A DNA stretch of 64,000 bases from Olsenella porci (GTDB taxonomy: Bacteria > Actinomycetota > Coriobacteriia > Coriobacteriales > Atopobiaceae), in assembly GCF_009695875.1 (NCBI RefSeq), contig NZ_VUNC01000006.1, positions 1-64,000 on the forward strand. Reading direction: 5' to 3'. Positions 41,584-47,245 of the stretch are shown here, in pieces. The stretch's first letter is position 1. The number at the start of each line of letters is the position of its first letter. Below the pieces are notes generated by a model. That model saw only the letters and a list, made by a program, of their open reading frames with translations, was not told the DNA's origin and did not search any database. Made by a program: the position numbers and the translations under genes.

Positions 41584-42618
41584 CTAGTTGAACTTGAAGA
41601 TCTTGGCGACCGTTCGGTAGATGGCGACCGTTGCGAGCTTGCCGCCCCTGCCGGGGAGGTTCGTTGCCAAGCCGCAGATGCCCAGGCGTGCACGTCTCCA
41701 CATGCGACGGTCGTAGTCGTGGAGCTCGGCCCACAGGTCGCCGAGCTCGTCCATGGCGTCGGGGTGGTCGCTGAGCTCGCTGAAAACCGAGCAGATGGCC
41801 ATCATCAGCACGAAGTAGTTGACCATGTAGGCGCGCAGCGCGTAGCTGTCGATGTCATCGTACAGGTGGTAGGCGTGCATCATGATGCGCGTGATGCGAA
41901 CCTGCTGGTCAATGCGCCCCGCCATGACCTTCTCGTTCACGCTCTGGTCCTCGCGGCCGATGAAGTAGTGGTACAGGTCCACGTCCAGGTAGTAGATGGC
42001 CTTGCAGCGGGGGAGAGGGACGTAGGCATAGATGTTGTCCACATAGAACGTGTGGGCGGGCATGGGCACGCCGCCGTCGCGCAGGACGTCCGTGCGGTAG
42101 CAGAGCGAATGCATGAGCAGGTTCTGCGACATCATGAAGTGCCCCATGTCGTTCCAACGGAAGGTCCTGCCCACGGGGAGGGCGTGGCGATAGTTGACCG
42201 CGTGCCGCTTGCCCTCGAGGGTATGGTCGTAGATGTAGTTGGTGACCACGAGGTCCACGCGCTCGCCCAGGCGGTCGAACTCGCGGAGCTTGTCCATCAG
42301 CTTGGGCAGGGCCTCGTCGTCAAGCCAGTCGTCCGAGTCCACCACCTTGAAGTAGGTTCCCTCGGCAACGGAGAGGCCCTTGAGCACCGCGATGCCGTGG
42401 CCCCCGTTCTCCTGGTGCACCGCCTTCACGATGTCCGGGTACCTCTGCTCCCACTCGTCTGCCTTGGCGGGGGTGTCGTCCTTCTGGGATCCGTCGTCCA
42501 CGATTACGACCTGCACGTCCTTGGCGTACGAGGTCCCCTCGAGGATCGACTGTATGCAGTGGTCCATGTACTCCGCCGAGTTGTAGCAGGGGATGGCGAA
42601 GGTGATGACCTTCTTCAT
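41584..42618 (-). CDS. Family 2 glycosyltransferase
   Basis: 344 residues, GT-A fold. VDDGSQKDD near residue 39 and VVDSDDWLDD near 95 are the nucleotide-sugar and metal sites; GHGIAVLKG is the usual acceptor loop. No membrane helix; a weakly amphipathic C-terminus may touch the membrane. Such enzymes build surface polysaccharide or teichoic-type glycans. ATG 42618 has GGAGG at usable distance. Divergent from the radical SAM gene. Confidence 0.88.
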   Translation of the reverse strand: MKKVITFAIPCYNSAEYMDHCIQSILEGTSYAKDVQVVIVDDGSQKDDTPAKADEWEQRYPDIVKAVHQENGGHGIAVLKGLSVAEGTYFKVVDSDDWLDDEALPKLMDKLREFDRLGERVDLVVTNYIYDHTLEGKRHAVNYRHALPVGRTFRWNDMGHFMMSQNLLMHSLCYRTDVLRDGGVPMPAHTFYVDNIYAYVPLPRCKAIYYLDVDLYHYFIGREDQSVNEKVMAGRIDQQVRITRIMMHAYHLYDDIDSYALRAYMVNYFVLMMAICSVFSELSDHPDAMDELGDLWAELHDYDRRMWRRARLGICGLATNLPGRGGKLATVAIYRTVAKIFKFN

Positions 42619-42851
42619 TGTGTGCGGCCTCCTGGTCGTGTTGCCGGCGCATTGCGCCGCGCTTGCGAAACCATTATGGCACGTGTTGGCGGTTGCGCAG
42701 GTATCGCGTCCGTCGCCGCGCGACAGTCTGCGCCAGCCTTCCGCGAGCCACGCCGCCTGGTTTGGGTCCGCCGCGTTTCTCCCCTGCCCACACGCCGCGA
42801 GCTGCGAGAGAATGGGCATACATGCCAAACGCGATGCGGGGGAGAGGGAGC

Positions 42852-43724: not shown

Positions 43725-44147
43725 ATGAACAAGAGCGACGCGCGAGAGCTTGACGAGGCCATAGCTGCCGGGGAGGATGCGCTGGCAAGCCTCGAGGAGG
43801 CGCGGAAGACCCTCAAGAGCGCCAGCAACTGGGGCCTGGCGGACATCTTTGGCGGTGGCTTCATCACCACTGCGATTAAGCACTCCCGCATCGACGACGC
43901 CCGTGACCAGATTGAGCAGGCGCGCCGCGACCTCGTTCGCTTCTCCAGCGAGCTCAAGGACGTGCGCAACCTTAACCTGCCCGACATCGAAATAGACGGG
44001 TTTCTCTCGCTTGCCGACTACCTGTTTGACGGGGCGGTTGCGGACGTGCTGGTCCAGTCGCGCATCCAGGACGCGCTTGACCAGGTCAACGTTGCCAAGG
44101 CGCGCGTTGAGGAGATCGTGGCGACGCTGAAGGAGCAGTGCCGCTAG
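43725..44147 (+). CDS. Conserved helical protein of unknown function
   Basis: 140 residues, almost wholly alpha-helical with two coiled-coil stretches (about 5-35 and 60-85) separated by a Gly-rich loop SNWGLADIFGGGFITTAIKH that is the most conserved-looking part. A final helix covers 110-138. It resembles small cytoplasmic proteins found across Firmicutes and Actinobacteria without assigned role. ATG 43725 follows AGAGGGGTTGCC. Overlaps the convergent L,D-transpeptidase by four bases. Confidence 0.78.
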   Translation: MNKSDARELDEAIAAGEDALASLEEARKTLKSASNWGLADIFGGGFITTAIKHSRIDDARDQIEQARRDLVRFSSELKDVRNLNLPDIEIDGFLSLADYLFDGAVADVLVQSRIQDALDQVNVAKARVEEIVATLKEQCR

Positions 44148-45595
44148 GTGTGCACGATGACCTTGTCGCCCACCTTTACGAGCGAGTAGAGCTCCGCCGC
44201 GCTCTGGCTCGGCAGGTTGATGCAGCCGTGGCTGCCGTTCCACTGGTAAATGGTCCCGCCAAAGGAGCTGCGCCACGGGGCGTCGTGCAGTCCCACGGAG
44301 TTGCCCTGGAACGGCATCCAGTAGCTGACCTTGCTCCTGTAATCAGGCTCGCCGTCCTTGTCCTCGTCCGCGCCGACGAGGGTCTGGTCGGTCATCTTGT
44401 TGTTGATGTGGAAGGTCCCCGTGGGGGTCGCGCGGCCCTCGCTGGTGTCACCCGAGACAAAGTACGAGCGCCAGATGACCGTGCCGTCCGAGTCGTAGAA
44501 CCGCGCGTACTGGGTGGTCAGGTTAACGTCGATGTGGCGTCCCTGCTCGCGGGCTCCCTCCGACTCCGCCGGGCGCGTCCCCACGAGCGTGCGGGGGATC
44601 TCGATGGCATCCGAGCTCGCGTTGCACACGGCGTCGAAGATGCTGCCCGCGAGCGAGTCGCTGTCCAGCGCCCAGTCGTGCTCCTCGTCTGACGACGCGA
44701 CCTGGTCTGAAAGCTGGTCGCTCACCCAACTGGCAATGGCATCGCGGCTCACGTCGATCTGCGTCCCGTTGCTCACGCTCACCCAGCCCGAGAGCTGGTC
44801 GGAGCCCACCGTGGCGAGCGTCTTACCGTCCAGCGAGAGGGGGATCTTGAGGGCGAGAATCTGGTTGGCGCGCTTGAGGGTTTCCTTCAGGGTGGCGTCG
44901 TCCTTTCCCAGCGAGGGCTGTGCCAGGACCGAGTCGTCCAGCCTGACGTCGGTGGAAAGGGACGCGACCCCAGAGGCGACGGCCTTCTCAACCGCGTCCG
45001 CATCGAGCGCCGTCCCCACGGCCTCGTCGGTCGCGACGAATGCCTTCTGGTCAGAGTTGTACTCGATTCCCGCGTTGGTGGGTTGCGTGGCGCTGGCGTT
45101 GTACGTCTCGACCGCCGATGCGACGGCAGCCTTGAGCGCCGTCTCGTCGTAGCTCGTGGCCTCCGTCACGTGGACCTGCGTCTTCTCGAACAGGCCGAGC
45201 GGCCAGCGCTCCGGGTGGTTCTGGTCCATCGCCCCGCGGGCGTACGCAGACGCGTCCGCCTTGAGCGAGACGTCCGACGCCTTGAGGGTGAGGGAGAAGC
45301 CGTTGGGGCCCTGGGCCTTCTCCTCCCAGCCGGAGATGCCCTGGTTGACCAGCCGCTCGAGTGCAGCCTGGTCCATTCCGGAGACGTCCGTGCCGTTCAC
45401 GGTTGTTCCGGGGACAAAGTGGGTGGAGAAGAACGCGAAGCCAACTGCGTAGGCTACAACGACGGCTCCGACAACGGCGCAGAGCGCGGCGATGCCGCGC
45501 CGCCTGCCCCTCTTCGGTTCCTTCTCGGGCTGCTTGCTGGGGTCCGGGTCAGCGTGCTTTGGCAAGGTGCACCTCACAGGGGTGGGATGGGACAT
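44144..45595 (-). CDS. Membrane-anchored L,D-transpeptidase (YkuD domain)
   Basis: 483 residues. A basic Pro-rich tail and one membrane helix (about 34-56) anchor the exported part: two PG_binding_4-like domains (about 70-340) and a YkuD catalytic domain with GSHGCINLP (H456, C458). It should form 3-3 crosslinks in peptidoglycan or attach proteins to it. ATG 45595 has a poor ribosome site; TTG 45565 has GAGGTG at good distance and would shorten the tail by ten residues. Convergent, with a four-base overlap, with the helical protein gene. Confidence 0.9.
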   Translation of the reverse strand: MSHPTPVRCTLPKHADPDPSKQPEKEPKRGRRRGIAALCAVVGAVVVAYAVGFAFFSTHFVPGTTVNGTDVSGMDQAALERLVNQGISGWEEKAQGPNGFSLTLKASDVSLKADASAYARGAMDQNHPERWPLGLFEKTQVHVTEATSYDETALKAAVASAVETYNASATQPTNAGIEYNSDQKAFVATDEAVGTALDADAVEKAVASGVASLSTDVRLDDSVLAQPSLGKDDATLKETLKRANQILALKIPLSLDGKTLATVGSDQLSGWVSVSNGTQIDVSRDAIASWVSDQLSDQVASSDEEHDWALDSDSLAGSIFDAVCNASSDAIEIPRTLVGTRPAESEGAREQGRHIDVNLTTQYARFYDSDGTVIWRSYFVSGDTSEGRATPTGTFHINNKMTDQTLVGADEDKDGEPDYRSKVSYWMPFQGNSVGLHDAPWRSSFGGTIYQWNGSHGCINLPSQSAAELYSLVKVGDKVIVHT

Positions 45596-45670
45596 TACGC
45601 GCCCCGTTGCCCATCGGCATAGCAAAGGTGAGAGGGCCCGGGTGCGCACAGCTGCAGAGTGTAGCGCATG

Positions 45671-45699
45671 GGCCGGACACAATGTGTGGCCCTCCGGCC
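45671..45699 (-). terminator. Nested hairpin after glycosyltransferase-HTH gene
   Basis: GGCCGGA/TCCGGCC outer and CACA/TGTG inner stems, seven bases beyond the stop. Confidence 0.6.
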
Positions 45700-45705
45700 T
45701 GTGGC

Positions 45706-47064
45706 CTACCTGAGGAGCGCCGAGGACGTGGCATCGAAGACCTTTGCCTCAAGCCCCTCGAGGGAGTCCGTCTCGTCCTGGTCCATGTCGCGCGTGCGTG
45801 CGGCGTCAAAGTCATCGAGTGCGTCGGAGATAGCCTTGAGGATGCCGCCCGAGTCCGGGGCGAGCGTGGCGCCGGTGACCTTGCGGGGCTTTCCCGTTGG
45901 AAGGTATCCGTCGTCCGCGGTGGCGTCGTCCTCCTCGTCGTCGGGCGTGGGGGCGTTTGTGCTCACATAGCCGCGCGAACGCAGCTTTGCCAGGGATGCC
46001 GACACCGACATCGGGCTCGACCCCACGTAGTCGGCCATCTCCCTGGTGGAGCCGGCCGTCTCGCAGTACATGAGGTACACCAGCAGGCGCACGTCCTTCA
46101 CGTCTAGGTCGTACTGCGACGCGACGTTGTCCAGGTAGCGGTCCAGGAGCTTCTGCTCCAGATACAGCCTCCCCAGAGGGTTGGGTCGCATCTGCGGGTC
46201 CACGTAGGCCCTCGTGCGCTCCCTCCCCAGCTTGGTCGAACCCGGCCCCGGGAGCACCGCCCCGTCGCCGGCGGAGGTGAGGAAGAAGCGGTAGATGTCG
46301 AGCCTGCGACGCTGGTAGTCCCGCTCGTCGTAGATCGCCTGGTAGAACTTCTTGTAGTACTCGATCACCGCGAGCTTCATGCGCACGGTGCCGGGGATGC
46401 TCGCGCTCGTTGCGACAAGCGAACCCTCGGTCTTCACGTAGTAATAAAGGGGGACCTGCAGGGGGTAGATGCGCTTGGTGTGCAGCACGTACTCCATGTT
46501 GAAGATGAAGTCCTCGCACCAGCTGATGCTGGGGTCCATCCTGATGTGGAACTCCTCCACGATCTGCCTCTTGAATAGCTTGTTCCACACCACCCCGTAG
46601 TAGAAGTCGCTCGGGGCCTCCATCATGAGGTCGGCGTACTCCTCGCGCGTGACGGGGCGGTCCACGTCGATGTCGCCCTTGCGGGCGGTGCGGGACCCAA
46701 CCACGCGATAGAAGTCGCAGATCACCATGTCTGCGTCGTTGTCCTCCATGGCGCGCACCAGGAGCCTCGTGGCATCGGGGGCGATCCAGTCGTCGGCGTC
46801 GAGAAACTGCAGGTAGGTTCCCCGCGCGAGGTCCATCGCGGCGTTCCTGGTCTCCGAGACGCCGCTGTTATCGCGGTGTATCGCCCTGACGCGGTGGTCC
46901 TCCTCGGCGTACGAGTCGAGGATGGCAGGAGACGAGTCGGAGCTACCGTCGTCCACCAATAGCAGCTCAAAGTCCGTGAAGTCCTGCCTGAGGATGCTGT
47001 CGACGCAGCGCCTGAGGGTGCCCTCCGCGTTATAGACCGGGACGATGATGCTGACCTTTGGCAT
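45706..47064 (-). CDS. Family 2 glycosyltransferase with C-terminal winged-helix domain
   Basis: 452 residues. Residues 1-215 are a GT-A domain: IIVPVYNAEGTLRRC, VDDGSSDSS, FLDADDW (89-93) and SWCEDF (catalytic ED). Residues 230-310 are helical. Residues 320-370 (KDVRLLVYLMYC... STREMADYVGSSPMSVSASLAKLRSRGYVS) read as a MarR/winged-helix fold with a clear recognition helix and wing. The rest is acidic and disordered, ending TSSALLR. A GT fused to a DNA-binding-like domain is uncommon. GGGAGGC precedes ATG 47064. Confidence 0.85.
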   Translation of the reverse strand: MPKVSIIVPVYNAEGTLRRCVDSILRQDFTDFELLLVDDGSSDSSPAILDSYAEEDHRVRAIHRDNSGVSETRNAAMDLARGTYLQFLDADDWIAPDATRLLVRAMEDNDADMVICDFYRVVGSRTARKGDIDVDRPVTREEYADLMMEAPSDFYYGVVWNKLFKRQIVEEFHIRMDPSISWCEDFIFNMEYVLHTKRIYPLQVPLYYYVKTEGSLVATSASIPGTVRMKLAVIEYYKKFYQAIYDERDYQRRRLDIYRFFLTSAGDGAVLPGPGSTKLGRERTRAYVDPQMRPNPLGRLYLEQKLLDRYLDNVASQYDLDVKDVRLLVYLMYCETAGSTREMADYVGSSPMSVSASLAKLRSRGYVSTNAPTPDDEEDDATADDGYLPTGKPRKVTGATLAPDSGGILKAISDALDDFDAARTRDMDQDETDSLEGLEAKVFDATSSALLR

Positions 47065-47245
47065 GCCGCCTCCCACGACGTCCGGGGCCATCCCCGGGAT
47101 GACCAAACCAGTGTAACGCGCGCCCGGGGGTCGGGACGATTCAAGGGCGGGGGAGAGGAGCGTCCGACACCGGCTCGACGGACCCTCCCGCCGGCATCAA
47201 TCCCGTCTTGACCCAAGACTCCGTCCGCCTGGTCGTCACTTGCGA

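Follow-up and report, generated by a model that had tools for sequence, protein, structure and literature searches.

What role does a MarR-type winged helix play at the C-terminus of a glycosyltransferase? The question arises from one gene in a 64,000-nucleotide stretch of Olsenella porci DNA, here called the window. A first-pass annotation of this gene suggested that it could couple glycan synthesis to gene control, or that the partner of its helix may be a protein rather than DNA. The single uninterrupted frame said to carry both domains is present, as a 452-residue ORF. The annotation had not specified its strand, which is the minus one; the plus strand at 45706–47064 holds stops. A ribosome site was said to precede the glycosyltransferase start only. 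The site before that start is there (Table 1), but an in-frame GTG at codon 288, at the domain boundary, has a motif that also scores 5/6. Scores of at least 5 occur at 114 of 1339 positions, so that about 1 of 12 internal start candidates is expected to have one by chance. The MarR part may conceivably also be translated on its own from GTG288, but the ribosome-site score there is at chance level. The residue at this position is valine in 34% of family members.

Table 1. Features of the fusion gene and its product, in window coordinates
Feature	Position	Strand	Basis
GT2-MarR fusion gene, 452 aa	45706..47064	-	ATG 47064, stop TAG 45708-45706
Shine-Dalgarno-like GGGAGG	47069..47074	-	4 nt before ATG 47064; 5/6 matches to AGGAGG
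GT-A glycosyltransferase family 2 domain, residues 5-170	46555..47052	-	Pfam PF00535
Linker, mostly helical, residues 223-282	46219..46398	-	Alignment and AlphaFold2 model
Complete MarR-fold domain, residues 296-451, six helices	45712..46179	-	Model, Foldseek, VIA, profile
alpha1, residues 296-317, equivalent of MarR dimer helix	46114..46179	-	AlphaFold2 model
alpha4, recognition-helix equivalent, taken as residues 350-364	45973..46017	-	Model helix 351-363
Wing, residues 365-402	45859..45972	-	Strands 367-369 and 399-401; middle low-confidence

The N-terminal half is a GT-A transferase, as first annotated. Its match to PF00535 (Glycos_transf_2; E 5.3e-39) scores 134.3 bits, far above the curated cut-off of 23.3. 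Across 57 aligned proteins, D39, D89-x-D91, D92 and W160-N161-K162 are invariant, as are E184-D185 just past the Pfam match. The DxD metal motif and the acidic catalytic region are thus conserved in the fusion family. We take D39, D89, D91, D92, E184 and D185 to be the metal-binding and catalytic residues of a GT-A enzyme. By this conservation the domain appears to retain the residues of an active enzyme, and it is probably catalytic. It would move a sugar from a nucleotide sugar onto an acceptor, and the enzyme is presumably cytoplasmic or membrane-peripheral. Six linker residues are also invariant (K230, Y237, F240, D267, G280 and E282).

In the structure prediction the C-terminal half is more than a winged helix. 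An AlphaFold2 model of the full protein, built from the 57 aligned sequences, reaches a pLDDT of 87.3 and a pTM of 0.88; residues 283–452 modelled alone give 89.0 and 0.82. The helices run alpha1 (296–317), alpha2 (322–333), alpha3 (340–347), alpha4 (351–363), alpha5 (403–423) and alpha6 (429–451). With the wing between alpha4 and alpha5, this is the topology of a whole MarR chain. The 50 Foldseek matches listed are of MarR type, judged in part by their titles; their E-values are modest, the best being 4.0e-05. VIA aligns the domain with SlyA (3qpt; Z 15.2, rmsd 3.2 over 132 residues). A profile of the 57 members matches the MarR protein PA3341 at E 4.7e-13, over positions 23–149 of 153, and SlyA at E 1.4e-11. 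Pfam helix-turn-helix matches of the window protein stay below cut-off (HTH_Crp_2, 23.6 versus 27; MarR_2, listed for the C-terminal fragment only, 14.6 versus a gathering score of 27). One of 10 relatives scanned, L130, passes, with both MarR_2 (27.2 versus 27) and HTH_24 (25.7 versus 21.9). Model and profile together show that the predicted domain has the MarR fold and MarR ancestry. The MarR-like winged helix of the first-pass annotation is therefore borne out by the structure prediction and MarR comparison it had suggested. Its boundaries, given as 320–370, miss the flanking alpha1 and alpha5–alpha6. The stretch MADYVGSSPMSVSASLAKL, quoted as the recognition helix, corresponds to alpha3-turn-alpha4 (343–361).

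The fusion is conserved in Coriobacteriia, where a search for it had been proposed, and beyond. The C-terminal half is present in 17/140 genomes of the window's family and in 26/395 of its order, a count that includes the window's own genome and one marginal case (G297). A scan of one genome per species returned 91 pattern matches, 79 of them loci encoding a relative, in Olsenella, Tractidigestivibacter, Collinsella, Enorma, Bifidobacterium, Pseudoscardovia, Lachnospiraceae, Oscillospiraceae and Solobacterium, among others. Both B. thermophilum and B. boum have a family member. Start codons of the relatives were chosen by us. Duplicates, matches ending before residue 345 and scores below 150 bits were dropped from 99 rows. 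This left 80 different full-length fusions, counting that of the window; they come from Coriobacteriia, Bifidobacteriaceae and Bacillota. An assembly artefact is ruled out by these 80 members in two phyla. The alignments of 57 leave out 10 of 66 related-locus sequences: L075, which is very long, and nine near-duplicates.

Some relatives lack the MarR domain. Four of them (L124–L127) keep the glycosyltransferase and end at about 300–355 residues, so the enzyme can dispense with the module. In a quick tree of the glycosyltransferase domain (67 rows) they form one clade with support 96, and two further rows lacking the module, L006 and L007, fall apart from them. The fusion label needs two changes on this tree and the label for its absence three; with long outgroup branches, the tree fits gain and loss of the module alike. 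Actinomycetota and Bacillota branches are mixed, which suggests horizontal transfer of the family between the two phyla. A putative TetR-type regulator, recognised by eye and encoded at L124:9344–9919 (plus strand), lies 72 bp upstream of a relative without the MarR domain.

The two halves of the fusion differ in how well they are conserved. Over the same 3160 pairs, mean pairwise identity is 0.63 for the glycosyltransferase and 0.25 for the MarR-like domain. No column of the MarR-like alignment is invariant, and only two positions, Y19 and L79, reach at least 90%. The controls were three standalone MarRs encoded in the same genome as the window's fusion. Searches in the order or family gave matches in 59/395, 205/395 and 90/140 genomes, and the 30 best-hit loci of each search were taken; these are best database matches rather than proven orthologues. 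Pairs were compared at an overall domain identity of 0.38–0.70. The recognition helix is the most conserved element in all three control sets, exceeding the rest of the domain by +0.246 (394 pairs), +0.207 (179) and +0.241 (131). For the fusion the difference is -0.065 (153 pairs, 61 sequences). Its most conserved element is instead alpha1, at +0.134 versus -0.019, +0.057 and -0.184 in the controls. Among the helices of the standalone proteins alpha5 ranks last or next to last in conservation (-0.226, -0.260 and -0.159); in the fusion it comes close to the average (-0.034), and alpha6 is below average (-0.074).

The same question was asked by column entropy, by clade and by identity bin. For the fusion, 32% of randomly drawn column sets reach the conservation of alpha4, versus 0.4% and 3.3% for two controls. 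Relative to the domain mean, entropy in the fusion is 0.92 for alpha1, 0.91 for alpha3 and 0.97 for alpha4, and by this measure alpha1 appears only level with alpha3 and close to alpha4. Overall, the recognition helix of the fusion does not exceed the remainder of the domain in conservation; the exceptions are four of nine clades, all small (1–5 pairs each). It falls below the rest in another four of the nine, and the largest clade, with 26 sequences and 316 pairs, has 0.41 for both. None of the three larger clades has the +0.2 excess of free MarRs. Most fusion pairs, 2976 of 3148, lie below 0.4 identity. An all-pairs comparison by identity bin, from which pairs above 0.95 were removed, gives an alpha4 excess below 0.4 of +0.04, +0.02 and -0.02 for the fusion versus +0.08, +0.01 and +0.06 for the one control that reaches so low; at 0.2–0.3 the values are +0.02 and +0.01. 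The contrast between fused and standalone domains thus seems to hold only above about 0.4 identity.

The wing differs as well. A D-x-R motif is present in 89/90 standalone sequences (30/30, 29/30 and 30/30) versus 7/80 fusions, and the window protein is not among the seven. The arginine of this motif is reported to make the minor-groove contact that is generic to MarR proteins (PMC2650471). The wing slice (window residues 365–405) is 19–120 residues long across fusions; the 16-residue slice of the controls never varies in length. The wing is acidic in the window protein (-5) and hypervariable in the family, with a mean charge of +0.5 and a range of -9 to +12, and several wings are Lys-rich. 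Alpha4 carries 0 to +5 in all 80 fusions; its mean of +2.5 makes it more basic than its counterparts in the controls (-1.6, +1.0 and +0.9). Such a helix would also fit contact with DNA, RNA or membrane. An acidic and conserved recognition surface, named at the outset as the mark of protein contact, is not what we find: alpha4 is basic and not preferentially conserved. The idea that the helix binds protein instead of DNA survives only in changed form. Taken with the helix data, the comparison shows that recognition helix and wing are apparently no longer under the extra constraint of same-order standalone MarRs.

We lean modestly towards the view that a GT2 enzyme has recruited the MarR fold as a module for oligomerisation and possibly for allostery. 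A complete MarR-type protein would have been fused to the C-terminus of the enzyme and then converted to a structural module. Most likely it would hold the enzyme as a dimer and position the catalytic domains, and small-molecule sensing may persist from the MarR pocket. Alpha1 is reported to form the dimer of MarR proteins (PMC10458429). We infer the dimer-holding role from the finding that this helix, which here follows the glycosyltransferase linker, is the most conserved one in moderately diverged pairs. A dimer interface is thus a prediction for this protein, and the conservation of alpha1 may instead reflect packing on the linker. The equal conservation of alpha4 in the largest clade and the fading of the contrast below 0.4 identity call for more reserve about an oligomerisation module and lend slightly more weight to the two alternatives that involve DNA or a polyanion.

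An allosteric sensor is an unlikely alternative. A small ligand, for example a sugar-phosphate, a phenolic or a lipid, would bind between the dimer and winged-helix lobes and switch the glycosyltransferase, the output being enzyme activity and not DNA. MarR proteins are described as generally binding ligands between their dimerisation and DNA-binding parts (PMC10458429), and the fusion preserves the fold with a relaxed DNA surface. The joint model of the two parts (pTM 0.88) fits as well. Against a sensor stands the poor conservation of the domain, given its low mean identity and lack of an invariant column. We give similarly little credence to a broader version, a one-component regulator of gut Actinomycetota and Bacillota whose output has moved from DNA to enzyme, with the ligand signal passing through alpha1 and the linker.

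A bifunctional enzyme and transcription regulator, whose MarR domain would bind operators, perhaps lineage-specific ones, and so couple glycan synthesis to gene control, is improbable. The complete fold, with alpha4 included and basic, speaks for it, as does the alpha4 excess in four of nine clades. Perfect inverted repeats with 9-bp arms also occur in 5/67 upstream regions versus 0.45% of shuffles. Yet three of these five represent a single hairpin-like element, found in L104, L106 and L129, which are related loci, and the best palindromes are on average near chance (7.0 versus 6.7 in shuffles). The window's own upstream region has an 8-of-9 repeat, a level reached in 58/300 shuffles. No consistent operator-like palindrome is shared by the 67 upstream regions, and no neighbour is universal: no ORF cluster is common to more than 9/67 loci, with neighbours clustered from longest-ORF gene calls, which miss some genes. 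An overall alpha4 excess is lacking, in the three larger clades too, and the wing arginine motif is mostly missing. Of the tested features of DNA-binding MarR regulators, the protein lacks two, recognition-helix conservation and the wing D-x-R, and classing it with the MarR transcription factors would be a mistake. Control of genes as by a MarR repressor is unlikely, and the coupling first proposed is not supported, given a recognition helix and wing without standalone-MarR conservation and the absence of a shared palindrome. The element in L104, L106 and L129 lies about 80 bp upstream of the gene, and the differences that set L104 apart from L106 and L129 compensate each other; it is probably the terminator of the upstream gene and possibly an operator.

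That the basic alpha4 and variable wing contact an anionic partner other than an operator, such as a membrane lipid, a teichoic acid-like acceptor polymer or RNA, seems very improbable, since wing charge is not conserved and is negative in the window protein, although alpha4 is never acidic, several wings are Lys-rich and basic grooves at the TarS C-terminus have been proposed to bind anionic polymer, as that report has it (PMC5156392).

Seven neighbour proteins were tried by tblastn in 72 loci, and GH5 was found within 1 kb in the most places, 13. All 13 are among the 68 fusion loci, in Lachnospiraceae and Bifidobacteriaceae (L068, L070, L073, L075, L083, L084, L086, L090, L092, L094, L095, L096 and L099). 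Nine lie on the same strand as the fusion gene and four are divergent. With up to 10 kb searched on each side, all 13 nearest matches fall within 0.5 kb. The GH5 of L073 is closest to an exo-beta-1,3-glucanase (6zb9, E 8.7e-99), and neither it nor that of L096 has an obvious signal peptide at its start, judged by eye. In five Erysipelotrichaceae loci a GH3 gene (Pfam) overlaps the 3' end of the fusion gene. A GH5 or GH3 gene thus adjoins it in 18/68 fusion loci. These beta-glucanase and beta-glucosidase genes faintly hint at a beta-linked, glucose-containing product in some lineages. Genome-level co-occurrence of GH5 is uninformative, with relatives in 197/395 order genomes versus 26 with the fusion.

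Three other genes of the same genome were noted. A YkuD L,D-transpeptidase ORF (44144–45682, minus strand, longest start) begins about 24 bp past the fusion stop, on the same strand; it was rejected as a partner, since none of the other 71 loci gave a match at E 1e-10. A few kb from the fusion there is a second GT2 gene (41584–42828, minus strand; PF00535, E 2.7e-26). Elsewhere in the genome (L142, G000:C8 near 362 kb), an N-terminal winged helix (HTH_24, E 2e-10; MarR_2, 31.2 bits, above cut-off) precedes an NTP transferase and a choline-kinase/APH domain. By its domain matches this is another winged helix joined to an enzyme, here of a type seen in surface-glycan or lipid metabolism.

The comparison suggests the domestication of a common transcription-factor fold as an enzyme module, a case of fold exaptation that can be tested. 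It also draws attention to a glycosyltransferase conserved among gut, rumen and oral bacteria. Annotation based on winged-helix matches could miscall such fusions as gene regulators. We found no description of a GT-MarR fusion in openly licensed PMC papers, judged by title and the start of the abstract.

With MarR/SlyA transcription factors the module shares the complete six-helix fold and significant profile similarity. It differs in being joined to an enzyme, in mostly missing D-x-R, in an alpha4 that is not preferentially conserved and in its hypervariable wing. BirA and NrtR also combine an enzyme or enzyme-like domain with a winged helix in a single polypeptide. There the winged helix binds DNA, whereas the DNA-reading surface of the fusion looks relaxed. 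GmaR of Listeria, a glycosyltransferase and MogR antirepressor, is a precedent for a glycosyltransferase domain and a gene-control part in one protein, and its glycosyltransferase domain matches the fusion weakly (22ao, E 6.5e-5). Its C-terminal part is described as TPR, linker and antirepressor helices that bind the repressor MogR, and not as the winged helix found here (PMC9638930). The wall-teichoic-acid GT2 enzymes TarS, TarP and RmlT, which have C-terminal regions of their own, are among the best PDB matches of the whole protein and share the GT-A family 2 N-terminal domain and the helical linker. The C-terminal domain of TarS, as that account describes it, forms trimers, affecting processivity and hardly catalytic efficiency (PMC5156392). 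A C-terminal domain that drives oligomerisation is the role we propose for the fusion; in TarS its fold is reported as immunoglobulin-like and CBM-like (PMC5156392), and here it is that of MarR.
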